Below are positions 7,907-32,545 of a stretch of DNA of 40,351 nucleotides, piece after piece; position 1 is the first letter of the stretch, and every line of letters begins with the position of its first letter. Position numbers and translations under genes: made by a program. A model generated the notes under the pieces. That model was given only the letters and a program-made list of their open reading frames with translations, was not told the origin of the DNA and made no database searches. The DNA lies in the IMG/VR virus record IMGVR_UViG_3300029951_000578, positions 1 through 40,351 of that record, one strand, 5' to 3'. This DNA is from a virus.

Positions 7907-8368
7907 CTACCCTACCACGCCCGCCGCGTCCGGCGTCATAAAAATCTTCCGCTCTTCCATCCTCCGGTCCAGCAGCCCGTCATTGGTCACACCCTCGGTC
8001 TTGTCCCACACCAGGAACTGGTTCGCCGCGCCCAATGCATCGTGCTGGGTCAGCAGCCGCAGCAGGGTTGATCCGGCAAACGCTCCCGCCCCGATGTTGT
8101 AGACCAGGCTCCCCAGCGCGTCGAACATGTTCTGGCTCAGCACGATGTTCTTGCTCACCAGCCCGTTCAGCGGCTCTTCCACCCGCGTCACCAGGTCCGC
8201 CGTCATCGCCGCGTCCGCCTGCGCCAGCGTCCACGCCAGCCCCACCGTCACCTCCGGCCCGGTATGCCCATAGCCGATGGTTAGGATGCCACGCTGATCG
8301 CGATACGCCTTCAACACGCACCCTTCAAAGCCCTCGATCCTCTTCCGTCCCGCCGGCGAAATCGTCAT
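7907..8368 (-). CDS. GH24 (T4-type) lysozyme, phage endolysin
   Basis: A 153-residue muramidase that cleaves peptidoglycan between N-acetylmuramic acid and N-acetylglucosamine. The N-terminus shows the family signature: Glu15 in GFEG, eight residues, Asp24 in AYRD, five residues, Thr30 in LTIGYGHTG, that is the E-x8-D-x5-T catalytic arrangement. The later FDALGSLVYNIGAGAFAGSTLL block and LDRRMEERKIF helix also match GH24 endolysins. No signal peptide or SAR segment is seen, so it should need a holin for export. A small C-terminal-TM protein lies immediately upstream and a strong terminator downstream. Confidence 0.95.
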   Translation of the reverse strand: MTISPAGRKRIEGFEGCVLKAYRDQRGILTIGYGHTGPEVTVGLAWTLAQADAAMTADLVTRVEEPLNGLVSKNIVLSQNMFDALGSLVYNIGAGAFAGSTLLRLLTQHDALGAANQFLVWDKTEGVTNDGLLDRRMEERKIFMTPDAAGVVG

Positions 8369-8756: not shown

Positions 8757-10775
8757 TTAGGGGGCGTATTCATAGGCTCCTATCGCGGGAGGGTTTGCGC
8801 GCGTCACGCCGGAGAAGTCAACAGGAAGGGCGCTTAGATAAACTCCCGCGCCGACCACAGCGCTTGAACTGGACGCCGGAGCCACGTTCCCATATCCATA
8901 AGGATGGTAAGTCTCATCCACCAGCCCCGGATCGCCACACACGGCCGCAGCGTCCCCCTGGTACCACGGGCAAGGCCAGTTGTTTCGCTGGCCATATGTC
9001 GCATTGTTCGTCCAGCTAGCGCCTGGATTTGTAAGCATATTCAGGTCGGTGTTCGAGTAGATTGGGGTGGGGTTCTGGCTGTTGCCTGGGTTCTCGAAGC
9101 CAACGAAGACGTTGTCGTTGAATGCCAAAGTGTTCGTGTTTCCGGTGTCAGAGGTTGCATATTCCACTTCTAGGAAGATCGCGCCTTCGGAGAAGACCGT
9201 GTTGCCCTGAAAGTAGGCTGGGTCTCCAGGGGTCACATTGATAAGCACCGCAACATTACCGGCGCGACAATAGTCTTGAAGGCGCGACCCAAAGCCTGAT
9301 GGAGTTCCCGGAATCTGCCAGGAGAAATTCGTAGTCGTTCCCGTCTCCGCCGCTGTGGTTGCATTCGAGATCGGCACCGCGGTGCCTGAAGAAGTTACCG
9401 TTACCGTCGCGGTCGCGAAGGTATTTGCTGGAATGCCGGGGCCAAGCACGACTTGTCCCTGATTGACAACGAGGGGATTTGAGGGTGAAGCGGTCGCCGT
9501 GATCGATGTAGCTCCTGAAGAAAACGTCGTCGAGAGGGGGTTGGAGCCTAGGGCATAGCAATTGCCATTGATGACGCTGTTCTGAATTGTTGCCGTCGCG
9601 CCGCCCACTTTGAGCTGGTTTCCTTCATTTCCGAAGGCGAGGACTCGCGTGTCGGTCATCGTAGACCCAGGCCCGCTGATATGCAGAGCATCGAGGCCAT
9701 CCTGCGTGTTGTAGCTCACGATGCCCTGGTCGAAGTGGACCTGCCAGCCCGGAGAAGCAGAGGCGACCGTAGCCGTCCCAAATCCATCCCCATAGCCGCC
9801 GCTGGACTGGTCGGTGCAGTCATAGGCTGGGATGGCATCGACGATGGGGTACTCTTCCGCGCATCCGTTCCAACTGATGTTGAAGTGAAATATGTTCAGC
9901 GAACCGACTCCGGTAGTCCCATCCCCTGCGTCGGCATTCCAGCCTGAGACGGGGTTGTCTACGATTGTCAGGTAGTCCGCTACTACTCCGTTCCCCGTAG
10001 ACCCGACGATTCCCCCAGCGCCCATGCCGTGAATCGCGATGTCCGTCAGAGTGTCGAAGGTCGAAGTGTTGTGAAACTGAATCCCTTGGCCAGCCCAGTC
10101 TTGGGTGTTGTCGCAACCTTGTATTTGCGACGCCCTCCCACATGCCGACCAATCCGTCATATCGAGGCAAGCCACATCCACGTAGGAGACGCCGTACATG
10201 TTCAAGACGTTATTGACCCCCATCCCGCCATGAAGCTGGGTCTTGGAAGAGTTGGAGTGGCATGCAGCGAAGTTCTCGCCCAGGAACTTGGTGTGTTGAG
10301 AAGAGGTGCCGGATGGAAAAGCAGGAGCTCCAGAGTCTCCAGGATCGCCCGCAATGCTGCACCCCGTATACGTGGAGCCGGTGTTCGCGCCTACCCTGTA
10401 CGAGACTCCTGTCCCAATCGACCCGCGGATAATCATCGTGTCTCCGCCGACAGGCAGCCATCCCCATGCCGGGAAATGGTTCCCGTCAGCATAGGTACAG
10501 TCCGTCCAAAGCATCCGCACGTCATTGAAAGCGCAGTTCTGGTCAATGCCTGTTCCGGGGTAGGGCGCATCGCCGAGTCCGTTGCACTGGCCCGTCGTTA
10601 CGTTACTGGAGTAGCGCGTTCCACCGTCCGGTCGCACATACCAAGTGTTGTTCGTCGCAGGAGGCGTTTGGGCCACGACGACAGAGCCGGAGATAACCGC
10701 CGATCCTGAAACCACAACGCCCTGCGCAAGCAATTGATGCGCGGCGACCAAGATCAAGACCAGAAGCCTTTTCAC
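8757..10775 (-). CDS. Secreted right-handed beta-helix protein, tailspike-like
   Basis: A 672-residue protein with a Sec signal peptide (MKRLLVLILVAAHQLLA, then Q). Residues about 45-160 contain WYVRPDGGTRYSSN, NQNCAFNDVR and GDTMIIRGSI, a lead-in seen in pectate-lyase-like proteins. Residues about 180-450 carry repeated short strands with Asn/Gly/Asp turns (GIQFHNTSTF, GIVGSTGNGV, ALHISGPGST, KVGGATATIQ) as in parallel beta-helix tailspikes and polysaccharide lyases. Many cysteines (more than ten) suggest disulphides and extracytoplasmic folding. A signal peptide is unusual for a tailspike. It overlaps the upstream gene by four bases. It could bind or degrade surface polysaccharide; catalytic residues cannot be assigned. 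Confidence 0.75.
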   Translation of the reverse strand: MKRLLVLILVAAHQLLAQGVVVSGSAVISGSVVVAQTPPATNNTWYVRPDGGTRYSSNVTTGQCNGLGDAPYPGTGIDQNCAFNDVRMLWTDCTYADGNHFPAWGWLPVGGDTMIIRGSIGTGVSYRVGANTGSTYTGCSIAGDPGDSGAPAFPSGTSSQHTKFLGENFAACHSNSSKTQLHGGMGVNNVLNMYGVSYVDVACLDMTDWSACGRASQIQGCDNTQDWAGQGIQFHNTSTFDTLTDIAIHGMGAGGIVGSTGNGVVADYLTIVDNPVSGWNADAGDGTTGVGSLNIFHFNISWNGCAEEYPIVDAIPAYDCTDQSSGGYGDGFGTATVASASPGWQVHFDQGIVSYNTQDGLDALHISGPGSTMTDTRVLAFGNEGNQLKVGGATATIQNSVINGNCYALGSNPLSTTFSSGATSITATASPSNPLVVNQGQVVLGPGIPANTFATATVTVTSSGTAVPISNATTAAETGTTTNFSWQIPGTPSGFGSRLQDYCRAGNVAVLINVTPGDPAYFQGNTVFSEGAIFLEVEYATSDTGNTNTLAFNDNVFVGFENPGNSQNPTPIYSNTDLNMLTNPGASWTNNATYGQRNNWPCPWYQGDAAAVCGDPGLVDETYHPYGYGNVAPASSSSAVVGAGVYLSALPVDFSGVTRANPPAIGAYEYAP

Positions 10776-11251
10776 GGCGTCACCGAGCAGGTCCCGCTTA
10801 CAATCTTTCCGGCTGAGTCAATCGTCAGCGTGTAGGCAACGGAAGCGGTAGGAGAGGCACCTAAGGCAGGGACGGTCCTTGGAGCGCCATTCACCGTCAG
10901 AGTCTGCGCCGAAGTCGTCTCCTGCACCTGCAACACCTTCGTGGTCCCTTCGGATGGATCGACGTTGCCGAACTGAGCCAGGTTGGCGACGATCGTCACC
11001 GGAGGACCGCTGGAGAGCGTCAGGGGCAGATCCCAGCATCCGCCAACCTTCACGCATGGAACAGAACCGGCATTAGTCACCGGGGTCCCTGCCGCCACGC
11101 CAAACTGCACCGTGATCGGCGATGTGCCGAAGACGACCGTATCGCCTTCGTTGGCCACGGTGAACCATACGGTGGGCTGTGGAGTGGCGACCGCTGGCGT
11201 CTGCGCGCTGGCGACTCCGCAAAACAGGGCTGCGAGGATGAGTATCTTCAT
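10772..11251 (-). CDS. Small secreted beta-rich protein
   Basis: A 159-residue protein with a clean Sec signal peptide, MKILILAALFCGVASA with cleavage predicted before QTP. The mature part is beta-rich and Thr/Val/Pro-rich, with one CVKVGGC pair in the middle and another Cys near the end, possibly disulphide-bonded; strands such as GDTVVFGTSPITVQFGVAAG suggest an immunoglobulin-like or fibre-shaft fold. The start follows TAGGAG. It lies between two larger secreted fibre-like proteins and overlaps the next start by four bases. Probably a secreted accessory fibre or adhesin component; no precise function. Confidence 0.7.
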   Translation of the reverse strand: MKILILAALFCGVASAQTPAVATPQPTVWFTVANEGDTVVFGTSPITVQFGVAAGTPVTNAGSVPCVKVGGCWDLPLTLSSGPPVTIVANLAQFGNVDPSEGTTKVLQVQETTSAQTLTVNGAPRTVPALGASPTASVAYTLTIDSAGKIVSGTCSVTP

Positions 11252-11278
11252 AAGACTCCTACCATGTTGCGTTGACTG

Positions 11279-11361
11279 TTACATCGAAAGTTGGAGCGGT
11301 GACGCATGTACAGGCGCTACGCCAATCAAAAAAAAGGAAGTGCGAAAAGTTTGATTTTCAT
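11279..11361 (-). pseudogene. Broken short signal-peptide ORF at a T8 tract
   Basis: An excellent RBS (GAGGAGGAACTT) precedes ATG 11361. The frame reads MKIKLFALPFF and then hits TGA at 11326-11328, immediately after eight T (11328-11335). A shift of one base at the T-run would continue LIGVAPVHASPLQLSM to a TAA at 11279-11281, giving a canonical signal peptide with an AxA-type (VHA) cleavage site. Either a short secreted peptide is made by slippage on the T-run, or this is a decayed gene. It sits between two signal-peptide genes. Confidence 0.4.
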
Positions 11362-11371
11362 AAGTTCCTCC

Positions 11372-14300
11372 TCAAATCGCCAACAGGTTTACGGAATATC
11401 CGGTATACGTCCATGACGAAGTGCTCTGGTTGCATACTTCTCCAGTTATCACTTTCGTGTCGGACGTAAACCCCGCGGAGATTACGATTCCGTCAGGCTC
11501 AGCGGCTGTAAATCCGGAAGCAGTATTTGAAAAACTTCCAGACACGACGGTCGTTGAACTGCCCCCCGGAAAAGTGCTGGAGCCTAAGGCTATGCAATTT
11601 CCCGGTGTCAGAGAGCCAGTACCAAGGTTGGCCTGGTACCTTCCTACCGCTACGGATGGACAATTCGTCCCTGTAGATTGGCAGACGGTATTGCCGCCAA
11701 CGGTAAGGGCCGTACCAAATGTGCCTGTAGCTGCATTGAGCGTGCCGCTCTTGTTCCCTGCCGTCCCGTTCCCCACGTCCACCACGCCCGCCGAGTCGCG
11801 AGAGAGGCCGGTGTCGGCTGCGGCGTCCGACGCTCCGCTTGCCGTCCATCCCCATATTCCTGTGGATGCAGTTGTTACCCGCATTAGCCCTCCGTGGGAG
11901 TAGATCGAGAATGGAACGGTAGAGGTCGTATTATTCAAAGCATCCAAATAATTTGGGCCCGCTCCAGTGGACCCCTCGACATAAGGGAATAGCCATGAGT
12001 CGGCTCCGCTCGGCGTGTAGGTGCCAGCAACCCCGTTGCCGCTAACCGTCGTCGCGACCGTAAGCCCTACGGTATTCAACTGGTTCAATGAAAGCGTGCC
12101 GCTGGTATTGCCCGCTGTTCCATTGCCTAGCGCTACGGAGGCTGCCCCAATCCGCGAGAAAGCGGTGTCCGCCAGCACATTGCTGGGGTTGAATCCTATA
12201 GTCTCCCCAGACGGCACGCTAAATCCGCTAGGACAGAATTGAGCAAGGGCTACGGAGGCGACAGTATCAAAGAAACCGCCGCAGGGGATGAGGGGCGTCG
12301 GAGCGCCAGACCCATTCTGGAACCAGAACGTGCCATGCCCCCCTGTAGAGGTATTAGCAATCACCTGTCCAACACTGGAAGTATTCGCACCCGTCACGCT
12401 CGTCACTACCGCCAAGGAAGGGCTGCCAGCGAAAACCTGCGTTGTTGTGAGGTTGTATGGGTTGGGCAAACCGCCTGAGCTACATCCGCTGTTGACCGGA
12501 GCCCCATAAAGGTTTCCGCAAACCACTCCAGCCGTCACGGTCGGCGCTAGTGGATATGTGATATTCGTGGCCACGGCCCATTGAGGAGACTCAAGGTTCG
12601 GCGTAGTGCCACTGCAAGTTGAAGCCCCACGAGCGAAGTATTCGCATCCGGGATCAACACTATTGAGAAATGTCCCCAGAAGAGTTTCAACCTTTGGCTG
12701 ATCGACTACGCCCAAAGCGCGCGAGAACCAATCATTCGTAAAGCTCCAAAACCCGCACTGATAATTACCAGTGCAAGGCGTGGCTGTCGAAGTGTAGGGG
12801 GGCCCTCCGGTGGTTGGGATGGTGCCCACAATGGCCCATTCAGTAGGACTCTGGAGGATGTAGCCAGCGGCATTGGTGAGCGTCGAGAAGTTCGTATCGA
12901 AGTAGTTTTCGATAGTGGTCTTCTGACCGGAAGTGAGGATGTTGGGCGGGGCCATAACAGGCGAACTGTCTGCGGCAATCGCCAGTGATGAAGAGACTAC
13001 ATCAAGGTTGGTGGAATCCTGAATTGTAGCCGCGATAAGCAGCCCTGATGTTCCATCGATTAGATTCGCCCTGATGCCTGCTACTAGCAATGCTAAGTCG
13101 TTCGTGAAGAAAGTAACATTCGTGGCATCTCCGGCAGCCGTAGCCAGTTTCAACATCTCTGCATCGTCAATCGCAGCCCATACGTTGCAGTTGGCTACCG
13201 CGCCGGTGTTGCGCATATATTCCATAAATTCAGTACCACAGACGAACTCAGATGCAACGCCAGTTCCAGGGCCAGTGGGGACGGTGTAAAGATGAGTCGA
13301 ACCGTTGCGGGGAACAAGCGCCCACGCCGCTTTGATGTGCGCCACCAGCGCCGTGTACTCCGCTGTGCAGGCCGATGAACCAATGCCGGTCTTGAGGCAG
13401 TATAGGTATAGATTCTCCGGCACCATGATGCGCCCGTCGCCCGAGGCGGTACCATTCCCCGCCCCGCAGGAGAGGTCAAACCCGGAACAATAGCTTTGGG
13501 CGTTTACGCCGCCGCTTGGGAGTACAGAAGTCGGGTAGCCCAGCGACCCGCTAAAATTGGCATCGAATTTGGTCAGCGTGTTCAACAACAAAGACGCCGG
13601 GCACTTCGCCGGGTTCCCCATGCAGGCTAAAGTTTGGTCATCAATGAATTCTCCAAAACTCGCATAAACAGGCCCAGCGGAGCAATATTGCGTGCCATCC
13701 GTAAACTTGTTGTTGCAGTTCTGGTCGAAGACGCTGTTCGCCTGCACGGTCAAAGGAGAAGCGACATTGGCGGCAGCAGGAGTGCTGATGGGGGATTGGT
13801 AGTTGACATCTCCAATCGCTGTTGCAAGTGCCCCCCCTGTAGCCGAAATCTGCACGGCCCCAAGACCCGCCGCCGCTCCGCCCCCTCCGCACAGCCCATT
13901 TGCCACGGTACAGATTGGGGAGGACGAGGAGCTAGTGATGATGTTCACGGTGTGCGTCGAGGAGATGGCCTCGAGACCTTGAACTCCCGAGCTAACCGTG
14001 CTCGCTGTACCCTCTACAGCAGTGAGTATCCCCCCGTTTCCCCCCGTGCTGCGGAGAATTTCGACTTCTCCTCCCTCTGAGGTCAGGGATCCCGCAGCGA
14101 ATGGCTCATTCGTATTGATCGTCGTGGCGTTGTCGGTAATGGAAGAATTGCCAATAGTGCCGGTGCCGGTAAATTTAGGAATGGTGTTGGGAGTTCCAGA
14201 GCCGGTTACGCCGCTGCTTGATGCTCCGACCTGCACATAGTTCGCCCCATCCGAACACTTCACGCGCACCGTCGCACCGGCAGCGATGGTCACCACCGTG

Positions 14301-14599
14301 CCCGTCAATCCGCCAAAGGTAATTGGGCCGCTTTCCGAGTTCGTTACGTCGTATGCCTGCCCGATGTTCCTCGGCGCAACGATGGTGGTGGCCGTGCCCG
14401 CGATGTTCAGCCCCTGATGCCACCATTCATTCGGCACAAGGGTATAGGTCGAACCGCTCGTGGTGACGGAATATCCGCCCAGCAGCGCCAGCCCTCCGGT
14501 ATTGCCGACCGTTCCCGGCAGCAGGGTTGTGGGCGGTGCGCTCTGGGCCCAGCACTGCATCCCGATCATCAATGCGCCCAACGCGATTAGCTGTTTCAT
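11372..14599 (-). CDS. Very large secreted tail-fibre-like protein
   Basis: A 1075-residue protein starting with a Sec signal peptide (MKQLIALGALMIGMQCWAQS). Residues about 30-330 are Gly/Thr/Ser-rich with fibre-like repeats. A central globular part (about 330-720) is rich in Cys, Trp and Tyr and helical, with DDQTLACMG, SASGD-like loops, VCGTEFMEYMRNTG and NWFS-type segments, resembling an (alpha/alpha) barrel glycosidase, though I cannot assign catalytic residues. The C-terminal third holds two copies of the phage-fibre repeat SR...VxVGNGTAGNxSGTL (about 840 and 940). Typical tail fibres lack signal peptides, so this fusion is odd. The stop is followed by the broken 11279-11361 ORF. Likely host recognition or depolymerisation. 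Confidence 0.75.
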   Translation of the reverse strand: MKQLIALGALMIGMQCWAQSAPPTTLLPGTVGNTGGLALLGGYSVTTSGSTYTLVPNEWWHQGLNIAGTATTIVAPRNIGQAYDVTNSESGPITFGGLTGTVVTIAAGATVRVKCSDGANYVQVGASSSGVTGSGTPNTIPKFTGTGTIGNSSITDNATTINTNEPFAAGSLTSEGGEVEILRSTGGNGGILTAVEGTASTVSSGVQGLEAISSTHTVNIITSSSSSPICTVANGLCGGGGAAAGLGAVQISATGGALATAIGDVNYQSPISTPAAANVASPLTVQANSVFDQNCNNKFTDGTQYCSAGPVYASFGEFIDDQTLACMGNPAKCPASLLLNTLTKFDANFSGSLGYPTSVLPSGGVNAQSYCSGFDLSCGAGNGTASGDGRIMVPENLYLYCLKTGIGSSACTAEYTALVAHIKAAWALVPRNGSTHLYTVPTGPGTGVASEFVCGTEFMEYMRNTGAVANCNVWAAIDDAEMLKLATAAGDATNVTFFTNDLALLVAGIRANLIDGTSGLLIAATIQDSTNLDVVSSSLAIAADSSPVMAPPNILTSGQKTTIENYFDTNFSTLTNAAGYILQSPTEWAIVGTIPTTGGPPYTSTATPCTGNYQCGFWSFTNDWFSRALGVVDQPKVETLLGTFLNSVDPGCEYFARGASTCSGTTPNLESPQWAVATNITYPLAPTVTAGVVCGNLYGAPVNSGCSSGGLPNPYNLTTTQVFAGSPSLAVVTSVTGANTSSVGQVIANTSTGGHGTFWFQNGSGAPTPLIPCGGFFDTVASVALAQFCPSGFSVPSGETIGFNPSNVLADTAFSRIGAASVALGNGTAGNTSGTLSLNQLNTVGLTVATTVSGNGVAGTYTPSGADSWLFPYVEGSTGAGPNYLDALNNTTSTVPFSIYSHGGLMRVTTASTGIWGWTASGASDAAADTGLSRDSAGVVDVGNGTAGNKSGTLNAATGTFGTALTVGGNTVCQSTGTNCPSVAVGRYQANLGTGSLTPGNCIALGSSTFPGGSSTTVVSGSFSNTASGFTAAEPDGIVISAGFTSDTKVITGEVCNQSTSSWTYTGYSVNLLAI

Positions 14600-15558
14600 C
14601 CTGTCACCACCACTGTGTAAATTCCCGTCCCGAAGGTGGGGCCAACGTAAAGATTCATGCTTACCGTCGCCCCATTCGTATTGACGAAGCTGACCGGAGT
14701 CGATGCCAGTGTAGCCGGAAAGCCATTCACCGAGAACGTATGCCCCGCCCCGATCAGCAGCATGTAAAAGTAGTTCCCGGTCAGGTTGAATACGAACGTC
14801 GTGCCAACCCCCTCCGCGCCCAGCTGGAAGCTAGGCAACGTTCCTGTGTCGCCCACCAGCACCGCGTTCGTGCCGCTCGCCGTCGCTCCGGTCGCGGTTC
14901 CTGACGTTCCTGTACCAGAGAAGATCCTTGGATTCCAGTTCACTACCTGCATCGCCGTCTGCGTGCCCCCCTGCGTCGCAGACAGTGTAAACGTCGTCGA
15001 CGTCGCCGTGCTGTGTGTGAACGTCCCCGTAATCGCTCCGCTGGCAAACGGCGTTGTCAGCACCAGCGGCGAGTCGATCCCGTCCGTGTTGGTGATATTG
15101 GCGCTCGCCGGCAGCTCCGAGTAGGTCGCCGCGTAGTTCGGGTTCACCAGCGCCGCGCCCAGCTCCAGCGACGCCGCTATCCCAGTAAAGCTCAGGATCG
15201 CGAATGACCCTCCACCGCCGCCATTGAAAATCTGCGTCGCCGTGCTCAGGTCTACCGTGCCCGCGCCGGTAAACCGGTACATGCCCGCCTGCACCACGTT
15301 GCGCGCATCATCCAGCATGGCAATCTCGTAGAAGGTTCCGGTCGGGGATATCTGGTCGTTCGCCCACAGCGGAAGCGAGAACACGCCGTTGGCCGAGATC
15401 ACCAACTGCTTCACCTTCGCCAGCATCGCCGTGCCCACCACCCGAGGTACTGCCAGCCCGTAGTTGCACAGCGTAATGCGCAGGCCCGCGCCGTTGTCGG
15501 CGCCGCCGCTGGTATCGTCCAGAGTCGCCGTCAGCGTAATGTTCGGCGTTGCGGGCAT
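14596..15558 (-). CDS. Putative tail or baseplate fibre protein
   Basis: A 320-residue beta-rich protein beginning MPATPNITLTATLDDTSGGA, an opening typical of phage tail-fibre attachment domains (ITLTATLxDxSG). Residues 50-115 contain FSLPLWANDQISPTGTFYEI and NVVQAGMYRFTGAGTVDLST, also common in fibre N-terminal domains, followed by a GGGGGS linker. The C-terminal half is Thr/Ser/Gly-rich. It ends with a four-base ATGA-type overlap onto the 1075-residue secreted fibre gene. It has no signal peptide, so it may be the virion-anchored adaptor for the fibre proteins downstream. Confidence 0.7.
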   Translation of the reverse strand: MPATPNITLTATLDDTSGGADNGAGLRITLCNYGLAVPRVVGTAMLAKVKQLVISANGVFSLPLWANDQISPTGTFYEIAMLDDARNVVQAGMYRFTGAGTVDLSTATQIFNGGGGGSFAILSFTGIAASLELGAALVNPNYAATYSELPASANITNTDGIDSPLVLTTPFASGAITGTFTHSTATSTTFTLSATQGGTQTAMQVVNWNPRIFSGTGTSGTATGATASGTNAVLVGDTGTLPSFQLGAEGVGTTFVFNLTGNYFYMLLIGAGHTFSVNGFPATLASTPVSFVNTNGATVSMNLYVGPTFGTGIYTVVVTG

Positions 15559-15582: not shown

Positions 15583-16014
15583 TCAGGTGTAGAGCATCAT
15601 CTGGCCCACCTGCGCCACCCTGGGGTGTTCCGGGCTCTGGATGATGTGCTTTGCGAACCAGTCGCGAATGGGACGCTCCACAAAGCAATAGTACAAGCAA
15701 GTCGCTTCCCCGCCCATAGGATTTTCCGGCTTGGTCAGTTCATCCACAAAGATGCCATGGTAGATGTCGTCCACCTCCGCCATCAGGTCGCGCAGGTTGT
15801 CGTCGGCCAGGTCCATATTTACTTGCAGATCGATCTCATTTGCCTCGACCCGGTGCGTATCCTCCAGCACGTCCATCCACTCGCCCCAGCCAGCATCCAC
15901 CCGGTTCTTCAGCACGCAGGCCACCGCCAGCATGCACTGCAGGCTGCCCGTCCACCCCGCCTCCTGATACGCGAAGATCACCAGCTTCGCCTGGATCATC
16001 TGCTCGGCTGTCAC
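15583..16014 (-). CDS. Phage protein resembling SleB-type cell-wall hydrolase
   Basis: A 143-residue protein with a GTG start at 16014 after GGGGGA. Residues 10-39 (VIFAYQEAGWTGSLQCMLAV then ACVLKNRVDAG) match the pattern of SleB-like hydrolases, where a helix with a catalytic Glu (Glu18 here, in YQEA) precedes an AVAxVxxNRV helix. The rest (HGIFVDELTKPENPMGGEAT, CLYYCF) is less typical, and the usual later aromatic motif is not clear. It may degrade peptidoglycan during entry, or be a related structural protein. Palindrome copy 3 lies 12 bases upstream of its start. Confidence 0.45.
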   Translation of the reverse strand: MTAEQMIQAKLVIFAYQEAGWTGSLQCMLAVACVLKNRVDAGWGEWMDVLEDTHRVEANEIDLQVNMDLADDNLRDLMAEVDDIYHGIFVDELTKPENPMGGEATCLYYCFVERPIRDWFAKHIIQSPEHPRVAQVGQMMLYT

Positions 16015-27500: not shown

Positions 27501-27791
27501 CAGCGTCTTCCACGGATAAAAACTGTTTGCCGCCGGGAACGTATTGCTGTTGAAGACGCTCGACCCCGGCGCGCGCACCGGCGTCATCCGCGAACTCATC
27601 TCGATATTCAGCCCATCGATCAGCCGGTCGTACCGGCTCGCCGAATAGAACTTCTCCTGCAGGTACGGCACCGCCGGGTCGCTCAACTGGCTGGCCTGCG
27701 TAATCAGCCCGCTGATGTAGCGGTTCATCGAAAGCGCCGCGTACTCCGTCGCCTCCGGCAAAGCCCCGTTCTGGGTAAATGGATTAGCCAC
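24525..27791 (-). CDS. Giant virion protein (tail hub or stabilisation-like)
   Basis: A 1088-residue protein. The N-terminal 150 residues include DGLNIEMSSRMTPVRAPGSS, NTFPAANSFYPW and DGADGTLYDATPG, a pattern found in large podovirus tail proteins. The central region consists of many WY/G-rich beta repeats (TDGGLTWKC, GGLTWYNLGQPG, QQWKCYGPAV), and the C-terminal third has IDQIWIWRTVQGG, CYAFQRVWWADGNLV, GIQIILGTGTATNPF and EYPFNPATGY. Many repeated GLTWxxLG-like strands suggest a beta-propeller or stacked beta sheets. Starts with GTG at 27791, sharing a base with the upstream TAG. Probably tail tube or hub, the T7 gp12 / P22 gp10 position in the order of genes. Confidence 0.6.
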   Translation of the reverse strand: MANPFTQNGALPEATEYAALSMNRYISGLITQASQLSDPAVPYLQEKFYSASRYDRLIDGLNIEMSSRMTPVRAPGSSVFNSNTFPAANSFYPWKTLRNNVEAIRVLEDGADGTLYDATPGQISAIFAASAGAGPNRMLGLPNAQFYAGNGVDQKKWLFPGGWQASTNVLPGTLINQGAEPGVLYMALGGITVPVVATAVSGAGSSWQHLVYVNPQQVPANFANLVGVEVAFSGLTTDTTLNGQTLAVDKVLSSTLGIFQVTTTTGAAQAYTPDTGQGTTGNGTTNGTVPTFNATRLAVTQDAGQQWKCYGPAVQNTGLVAPLVPPTLTPVAGRFWLPNTAFPQFTSLLDSNGNIEVVASTSGTNRSGPVYPTWSASPAAAQLVATNLTGVPAATGNNFNTVYQNTSPNTELHSGWGLVIAGNSIAVFDLLVGPTNPPTMNTWGTTFTATDRAGTGSNGKLGFMFSVPPGWFYNLGVAGDVSGTPGGWDAAAQVPVATGIATPGGANAVTVDGGLTWYNLGQPGIWQADAANAGVTGSCLIDSNGNLQWLFDGAGGTSGVTEPTWGTTLGAAVTDGGLTWKCISVGGSGSSLSYQSLQYAYSTHAVDGSVSTASPVAVIYGGVLGEAPAVLDPILTLAATSPGLFTDPQIDQIWIWRTVQGGATLILEDQIPADGLTNTFSYGEAGIADASTLGLASLNALIPAPVADANDPPTATSLPMCYAFQRVWWADGNLVRYSGGPDTLAGNGNTAQPPVNFIAFLGKVYAIIPVTVQNGGLIVYTSSGIQIILGTGTATNPFYSTTYYRSVNVVNYNAISLFNTTMFVMEATGKVSAIAVEYPFNPATGYTEIGQPIGDQFQKVTTGGISTALYNPATAFVAWNSESTEENALYVADGVVGWFRLNFLNNPESGAVWSPRRAIAGGTSAVQSIETSPGINQLLIGPAAGTTGPILVRDSSTNQDDGTDFGAPYATIGGLVLAGAGEVAEIAFVTLDSVKVGTAPTIAMLFGEIAATVNAPFVSYLEQTADPPLVKRTPQSVYAQRFEMLQGKVTPKCRYLQMKVQWTAENAASELLAHAIYGAKKSERKQQP

Positions 27792-28093
27792 TACGCGGCC
27801 TCGGCCAGCGGCGCTAAATCATAGAGCGATTTCACGGTCAACGCAAAGCGGTAGGCCATCTCAGATTGCAGATTCATCAGCGCAGGGTCGGTGGATGTCT
27901 CCATTGCGATGTCGCTGAAACTCATATAATCCGCGTACTGCCCAATACAAACCTCGGTCGGGGCAATCACTTTTGGAGCTTCGGCAGCGATGCACGAGGG
28001 GATTATCTTAGCCAATACTGGTGTAGCCGCGACGATTCCGAGAGCCTTCAGGAACTCGCGGCGGCTGACCCTCTTCCGTTCCACGTGGAGCAT
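27791..28093 (-). CDS. Twin-arginine signal fused to a capsid-protein fragment
   Basis: A 100-residue protein. Residues 10-16 are SRREFLK, an exact match to the Tat consensus (S/T)RRxFLK, followed by a hydrophobic stretch (ALGIVAATPVLA) and Cys34. Residues 51-90 align without gaps to residues 150-189 of the major capsid protein (31352-32545), with 23 of 40 identical by eye, including GQ-ADY, FSD, DPAL and EMAYRFA. It is therefore a truncated capsid paralogue behind an export signal. It sits in the connector/tail module, two bases after an adaptor gene and sharing a base with the giant virion gene. RBS GAGGGG is a little far. Possible roles: membrane-targeted assembly nucleator, decoy or receptor-masking protein; unknown. 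Confidence 0.7.
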   Translation of the reverse strand: MLHVERKRVSRREFLKALGIVAATPVLAKIIPSCIAAEAPKVIAPTEVCIGQYADYMSFSDIAMETSTDPALMNLQSEMAYRFALTVKSLYDLAPLAEAA

Positions 28094-31320: not shown

Positions 31321-31355
31321 GTAATTTGATTACTTTCCGGCTGTAATCAAATTAC
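31321..31355. terminator. Perfect 12-bp stem-loop overlapping the capsid stop codon
   Basis: GTAATTTGATTA (31321-31332) and TAATCAAATTAC (31344-31355) are perfect inverted repeats with an 11-base loop. The capsid TAA stop (31352-31354) lies in the stem. It is AT-rich without a T-run, so it is more a 3'-end-protecting hairpin than a classical terminator. Confidence 0.5.
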
Positions 31356-32545
31356 GTGGTTTGTGGTACAGCCGCCCAAACCCGCGCACGGCTGGTCGTA
31401 TCCGGCGGAGGCCCGAAGGCGCCAATCCAGTTGTAGCTGGTCCCGGCCTTGATCACGCCCGCGGAATCGAACGCGCTCGGCTTGTCGTAGTTGCCGCGCC
31501 ACAGTTGGATGTTCTTCCAGTTGCCGTCGCCCAGCTTCGTCCGATCCGGCCGATCCATCTTCACCGCAACCACCGCATCCTCGCCCGCCAGGTAAGTATA
31601 CAGCGCCGTCTGCCCGCTGCCCTGCCAGTTGGGAGACTGCGTTACCTGCGTGCTCGTCATCCAGCGCGCGCCAAACAGGTTGATCACGTCGCACTCGTCG
31701 CCGTCGGCAAGCTCCTCCAGCCTGCGCAGCCCGTCGTCAGTGTGCTTCATGATGTCCACAATGCTGTTGTTCGTCGAATCGATGTACAGGTCGCCGATAA
31801 ATGCATTGTGGATCACGCCATGGTATTTGCGGTCCTGGATCGGCAGCACGTTCTGGATGCCCAGCGAAGCCACGTTCTGCTCCAGTTGCGACTTGGTGAA
31901 GTAGTACGGCGTGGTGGTCGCATCGTAGGTGCCCGTCTTCGAGTCCAGCGTGCGCAGGTAGTCGAACTGAGCCCGCACCAGCGCCTGGATCGATTCCGCG
32001 AACCGGTACGCCATCTCGCGCTCCACATTCTCAAGCGCGGGATCGATGGTCGTATCCATCACGAAGTCGGAGAAGTTGACGTAATCCGCCCACTGCCCCA
32101 TCACGTAGTTCACGAAGTTCACCGTCAGCGAAATGCCGGTGCCCACCGTGCCCTCGGTCTGCTGCGTGGTGTTCGGCCCCAGCGTGTTGTACATAAACGC
32201 GCGGTAGGCCTGCCCCGCATGCGCCGGCATCTCGCGCATGGTGCAAAGCAGTAGCATTACCAGATTGGCCTTCAGGTTCTTGAAAAACTTGTTGTCGTAG
32301 TGGATCGTTTGCGACGCCTGCGGCATGTTCGCCGACTGCATCGACGTAGGCGACGGTCCAGCCCCGAACACAGGGTTGTGCGCAAAGAGAGCGGCGGACT
32401 CCATGGCAAACTTCGCCGTCCACGCACTCGCGTTCGTGAAGGCGGCAAACGCCATCACCAGGGCAATGGCCGGGAGGAAGATCATCCGCACCAGTCCCCA
32501 CGAAAATTGATTCATTCGGTTCAGATCAAGCGTCTGTCGCTTCAT
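31352..32545 (-). CDS. Major capsid protein, N4-gp56-like
   Basis: A 397-residue protein in the major-capsid position, after a scaffold-like gene. Residues about 80-200 match the N4-gp56 family layout: YDNKFFKNLKANLVMLLLCT, NYVMGQWADYVNFSDFVMDT, DPALENVEREMAYRFAESIQ. Later parts contain GVIHNAFIGDLYIDSTNN and WQGSGQTALYTYLAGEDAVV. The N-terminus is odd: from this start, residues 20-41 (RMIFLPAIALVMAFAAFTNA) are hydrophobic behind a basic stretch, like a signal anchor. An internal ATG at Met48 (MESAALFAHNP) would give a normal capsid, but its RBS is weak. The stop is inside a stem-loop, followed by a second hairpin, as expected for a highly expressed gene. Confidence 0.82.
   Translation of the reverse strand: MKRQTLDLNRMNQFSWGLVRMIFLPAIALVMAFAAFTNASAWTAKFAMESAALFAHNPVFGAGPSPTSMQSANMPQASQTIHYDNKFFKNLKANLVMLLLCTMREMPAHAGQAYRAFMYNTLGPNTTQQTEGTVGTGISLTVNFVNYVMGQWADYVNFSDFVMDTTIDPALENVEREMAYRFAESIQALVRAQFDYLRTLDSKTGTYDATTTPYYFTKSQLEQNVASLGIQNVLPIQDRKYHGVIHNAFIGDLYIDSTNNSIVDIMKHTDDGLRRLEELADGDECDVINLFGARWMTSTQVTQSPNWQGSGQTALYTYLAGEDAVVAVKMDRPDRTKLGDGNWKNIQLWRGNYDKPSAFDSAGVIKAGTSYNWIGAFGPPPDTTSRARVWAAVPQTT

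Follow-up and report, generated by a model that had tools for sequence, protein, structure and literature searches.

Predicted Sec signal peptides on a run of tail-fiber-type phage genes and their counterparts in related phages

Virion fibers are generally assumed to be produced in the cytoplasm. Why, then, do three consecutive fiber-type genes of a soil phage each begin with what appears to be a Sec signal peptide (SP)? The window analyzed here is a virus record of 40,351 bases, in which terminase, portal, capsid, and lysozyme genes are identifiable and whose structural genes are collinear with those of the cultured acidobacterial podophage Tunturi_3 (identities of 37% for capsid, 31% for portal, 35% for gp12, and 33% for gp19). 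Four fiber-type genes lie on the minus strand, bracketed by a hydrolase homologous to gp26 of Tunturi_3, annotated there as endolysin, directly upstream (15583..16014, minus strand) and by a phage lysozyme that closes the module (7907..8368, minus strand; PF00959, E 2.5e-35; phrog_7). The first encodes a 320-aa fiber-base-like protein without SP (14596..15558, minus strand), and is followed by genes for a 1075-aa fiber-like protein (11372..14599), a small 159-aa protein (10772..11251), and a 672-aa beta-helix-like protein (8757..10775), all on the minus strand and each with a Sec-type SP and a predicted cleavage site between A and Q. The original prediction had given lengths and coordinates of these last three correctly, but missed the SP-less gene directly upstream. 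Overlaps of four bases join the 320- and 1075-aa genes, where the stop of the former runs into the start of the latter (ATGA), as well as the 159- and 672-aa genes, suggesting coupled translation. A short open reading frame with a strong ribosome site, an SP-like start, and an end at a run of eight T lies between the 1075- and 159-aa genes (11326..11361, minus strand). The N-terminus of the 320-aa protein resembles by eye that of tf15, an SP-less fiber of Tunturi_3, and its gene occupies the position of an SP-less 250-aa protein in the related phage L117. No match to the Tunturi_3 fibers tf15 and tf18 was found in the window, and pattern scans with the 320-aa protein, portal, and gp12 yielded no useful viral relatives.

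Signal peptides were called with a home-made rule (positive N-region, hydrophobic core, residues at -3 and -1) instead of SignalP. Under this rule the 1075-aa protein starts with MKQLIALGALMIGMQCWA (14546..14599), the 159-aa protein with MKILILAALFCGVASA (11204..11251), and the 672-aa protein with MKRLLVLILVAAHQLLA (10725..10775), all encoded on the minus strand and each followed by Q. These are the only clean Sec/SPase I patterns among 38 plausible window genes, and the structural neighbors have none, bearing out the three consecutive SP genes of the original prediction at the level of a rule-based call. The rule is positive in 6 of 240 window open reading frames. Further matches among the plausible genes are an HNH gene, judged a false positive, a 100-aa open reading frame, and, under a looser start choice, the capsid gene, whose signal-like start was left out of the module. 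The 100-aa frame (27791..28093, minus strand) combines a Tat-like signal (SRREFLK) with a stretch of ~45 residues that resembles the capsid protein. The major capsid genes of the window (31352..32545, minus strand) and of the L117 phage (L131:6820-7995) share a similar N-terminal extension that is absent in Tunturi_3, consisting of an MKQT-like start, ~25 hydrophobic residues, and the motif GPSPT..SANMPQ.

None of the three proteins had a significant family match in PHROGs or Pfam, and phmmer found no match to them in the PDB. The 1075-aa protein contains two copies of GNGTAGNxSGTL (residues 825 and 943), and its C-terminal repeat shows 63-aa similarity to an SP-bearing fiber of the sibling phage L001; searches of viral contigs, phages, and six host genomes turned up no relatives of the protein, and its single-sequence structure model is useless (pLDDT 31). 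For the 672-aa protein the predicted model is strand-rich, with a beta-helix-like strand pattern (pLDDT 72, pTM 0.76). Of the fiber repeats and beta-helix that had been expected of this cluster, the former are seen in the 1075-aa protein and the latter is suggested by the model of the 672-aa protein, but neither was found in the 159-aa protein.

The module pattern, not anticipated in the original prediction, is general among related phages. Runs of two to five SP-bearing genes are found there, for the most part at the tailspike position (44 genes checked, from 14 phages and 19 families), often between internal virion proteins devoid of Cys and the lysozyme. The same architecture is found in IMG/VR records L001, L002, L003, L005, L084, L114, L117, L119, L121, and L122, and in the cultured Tunturiibacter phages Tunturi_1 and Tunturi_2 (gp12, 13, 14, 16, and 17) and Tunturi_4 (gp113 and gp114), with three SP genes in L001 and L003, four in L002 and L117, and five in Tunturi_1. 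SP-positive genes make up 40 of 149 in module phages versus 3 of 495 in control phages, a comparison that is not independent because module phages were partly picked via the 672-aa family; the two anchor-domain tests described below start from other domains. In most phages with a homolog of the 672-aa protein, the neighboring genes are SP-bearing and Cys-rich as well. Two more SP-bearing genes (146 aa, and 594 aa with 21 Cys) lie away from the fiber module, between terminase and portal (L128:16256-18474). Tunturi_3, which infects the same host strain as Tunturi_1, has no SP-bearing fiber gene and its fibers are SP-less; therefore, export is not required. Signal peptides are not mentioned in the main text of the paper describing the Tunturi phages (PMC11924767). 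The 39-kb L002 record (G303) is P22-like by its head-closure (Hc3), adaptor (Ad3), ejection, portal, and terminase proteins. All four genes in its tailspike slot bear SPs, one with a low rule score, and no SP-less tailspike candidate remains; the tailspike of this phage, if it has one, is probably exported. Because the whole slot is SP-bearing, the most parsimonious model for these phages is docking at or after lysis.

Signal peptides also stand in front of tailspike anchor domains. A first such domain stands at the N-terminus of the tailspike of Xanthomonas phage PBR31, and this N-terminal part has been described as apparently virion-binding (PMC10975493). About 80 of its 88 matches begin at Met1 without SP, whereas in L001, L002 (=L033), L080, and L084 it lies behind an SP, with the cleavage point corresponding to Met1 of the SP-less relatives; two of three matches in Acidobacteriota genomes have an SP. 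The rule also called MCRCIMAVITP (L048, L055-57), rejected as a false positive because the domain begins at the second Met. A second anchor domain, the N-terminal domain of Tunturi_1 gp12, forms the SP-less N-terminus of tailspikes or fibers in Serratia phage MTx, Erwinia phage Cronus, Klebsiella phage KA2-1, and E. coli phage ECO1230-10. It is preceded by an SP in 20 of 28 contigs (19 called by the rule and L164 on visual inspection), a count that the confirming query, which included the SP, may bias toward SP-bearing matches, whereas the scan pattern did not include it. Within this domain, 18 of 19 distinct SP-positive sequences carry P-x-C, while none of the seven distinct SP-negative ones does, all seven having P-x-A. 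Some SP-positive anchors are without the extra Cys (L080, L123, L124, and L170). Virion pick-up outside the cytoplasm, one of the options originally raised, is thus the best supported alternative in the sibling phages, although no virion-anchor (P22-type tailspike N-terminal) domain was recognized in the window's own SP-bearing proteins.

The cysteine content of these proteins points in the same direction. With 26, 4, and 14 residues, the 1075-, 159-, and 672-aa proteins do contain the many cysteines ascribed to them, compared with 0-5 in other large structural proteins (2.1-2.5% versus mostly 0-0.7% of residues). Across the same loci, the median is 2.16% in SP-bearing versus 0.64% in other genes, and several internal virion proteins beside the modules have no Cys at all. 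Of 43 SP proteins, 37 have an even number of Cys in the mature part (binomial p 8e-7, with family members not being independent), compared with 70 of 150 SP-less open reading frames; taking one protein per family leaves a weaker excess (mean 13.5 of 19). The window proteins themselves, with 25, 3, and 14 mature Cys, include two odd counts. A comparison with secreted host proteins, suggested earlier as a check, gives a divided answer: Q most often occupies position +1 in both the phage set (23 of 37) and the host secretome sample (11 of 34), but median Cys is only 0.40% in secreted proteins of Edaphobacter, a one-genome sample. Since SPs precede anchor domains, Cys is gained together with the SP, and mature Cys counts are even over the group, export with disulfide formation appears very likely from these sequence patterns.

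We consider it an even chance that the window trio is the exported part of an acidobacterial podophage tail-fiber module, folding in the periplasm and docking to the virion at or after lysis. The three proteins would be expressed late in infection, with the overlapping genes being translated together with the structural proteins, and would pass via the Sec pathway into the periplasm, where the SP would be cleaved between A and Q. Folding would then take place in an oxidizing compartment in which cysteines could pair, while virions would be built in the cytoplasm without these proteins. At or after lysis, the exported adhesin or depolymerase proteins would meet the particles, and those carrying or binding an anchor would dock. 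Given that no anchor domain is recognized in the window's SP proteins, docking may run through the SP-less 320-aa protein, the likely candidate for this role, or the trio may act freely. A late addition has a parallel in P22, whose particles receive the tailspike last and, when they lack it, bind it in vitro. Extended to the whole group, our proposal becomes more tentative and falls somewhat short of an even chance: a set of tailed phages, mainly of Acidobacteriota, would complete their virions outside the cytoplasm, sending tailspikes through Sec, forming their disulfides in the periplasm, and docking them only at lysis.

A reading that we rate as a serious possibility, albeit one that we would not expect to prevail, holds that the three proteins never become virion parts and are free secreted enzymes, soluble processors of polysaccharide in the periplasm or outside the cell that open host exopolysaccharide for progeny release and spread. 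Its best candidate, judged from homology and gene context, is the 672-aa protein, because its host homologs appear secreted, one of them lies in a polysaccharide setting, and phage copies are interspersed with host copies. Homologs occur in viral contigs L001-L005, L114, L117, L119, L121, and L122, in Tunturi_1, 2, and 4 (including gp17 and gp114), and in Terriglobia hosts, whose copies bear SPs or lipoboxes of their own. The host copy that was checked (L011) adjoins glycosyltransferases and a Wzy_C O-antigen ligase. In the family tree phage and host copies intermix, the sister of the window copy being a host copy. Twelve Cys are near-invariant over 18 sequences; the 14 Cys of the window protein comprise these twelve and two private ones. 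A working analog exists in Pantoea WceF, a tailspike-fold hydrolase of exopolysaccharide (EPS) that carries a Tat signal and whose gene belongs to an EPS cluster (PMC7949094). Thus, of the original idea of secretion to degrade exopolysaccharide, the export itself is strongly supported by the co-variation of SP and Cys in the anchor family and by the even mature Cys counts, and the 672-aa protein could plausibly act as a free polysaccharide enzyme. For the modules at large, the SPs in front of tailspike anchor domains in sibling phages and the lack of an SP-less tailspike candidate in G303 argue against free enzymes and for docking.

The export itself would accommodate a role in surface display or superinfection exclusion, also raised originally, with exported fibers occupying receptors or changing the cell surface during infection or lysogeny. 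We regard this as very unlikely. The genes lie where structural genes give way to lysis genes, the SP proteins of the window showed no strong membrane segment other than the first, and integrase or recombinase genes are reported only in Tunturi 3-5 and not in Tunturi_1 and 2 (PMC11924767), both of which have large SP modules. Lysogenic conversion was likewise weighed and rated low. Least probable of all is that the proteins stay inside, their hydrophobic N-termini being structural peptides of cytoplasmic virion proteins or start-site artifacts: the SP calls come from sequence and the capsid gene of the same phage has its own odd hydrophobic extension, but the A-x-A sites followed by Q, the +1 residue favored in phage and host sets alike, the coupling of SP to Cys gain with even Cys counts, and SP-less relatives that start at the cleavage point all speak against it.

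No precedent for signal peptides on tail fibers was found in the open-licence papers searched, and a study of diversity-generating retroelements counted the absence of SPs as support for phage origin (PMC6199706). In the phages described here SPs are the rule for whole fiber modules, contrary to the usual view of cytoplasmic fiber production. Should the proteins prove to be virion components, the assembly of tailed phages would include an extracytoplasmic step and disulfide-stabilized spikes; otherwise, the phages of this group and their hosts would have a large common set of secreted polysaccharide-active proteins. The cultured phages Tunturi_1, 2, and 4 make the question of virion versus secreted location directly testable.

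Among known systems, P22-type tailspike phages have the same gene order of internal proteins, tailspike, and lysozyme, and the tailspikes of PBR31 (gp34) and Rhodoferax phage P26218 share a homologous anchor domain with siblings L001, L002, and L084 (~47-58% identity). Unlike those siblings, the PBR31 and P26218 tailspikes start at Met1 without SP or Cys pair, and no such domain was found in the window proteins. WceF of Pantoea stewartii is an exported beta-helix protein whose gene lies with those for polysaccharide synthesis, a setting shared by at least one host homolog of the 672-aa protein; however, its signal is Tat rather than Sec, and phmmer against the PDB found no sequence relation of the 672-aa protein to the solved WceF structure up to E 1. 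Burkholderia phage BcepC6B gp19 (L149:3001-4074) and PBR31 gp35 (L023:6154-6963) are tail-fiber-type proteins with a Sec-like SP whose genes adjoin holin or lysozyme genes, but each is the single such fiber gene of its phage, contains few Cys (4 and 3, respectively), and neighbors an SP-less tailspike or fiber. Although in its structural genes the window is closer to Tunturi_3, which lacks SP-bearing fibers, than to Tunturi_1, 2, and 4 (PMC11924767), it is the latter three phages that likewise harbor runs of SP-bearing, Cys-rich fiber proteins, with gp17 and gp114 as counterparts of the 672-aa protein.
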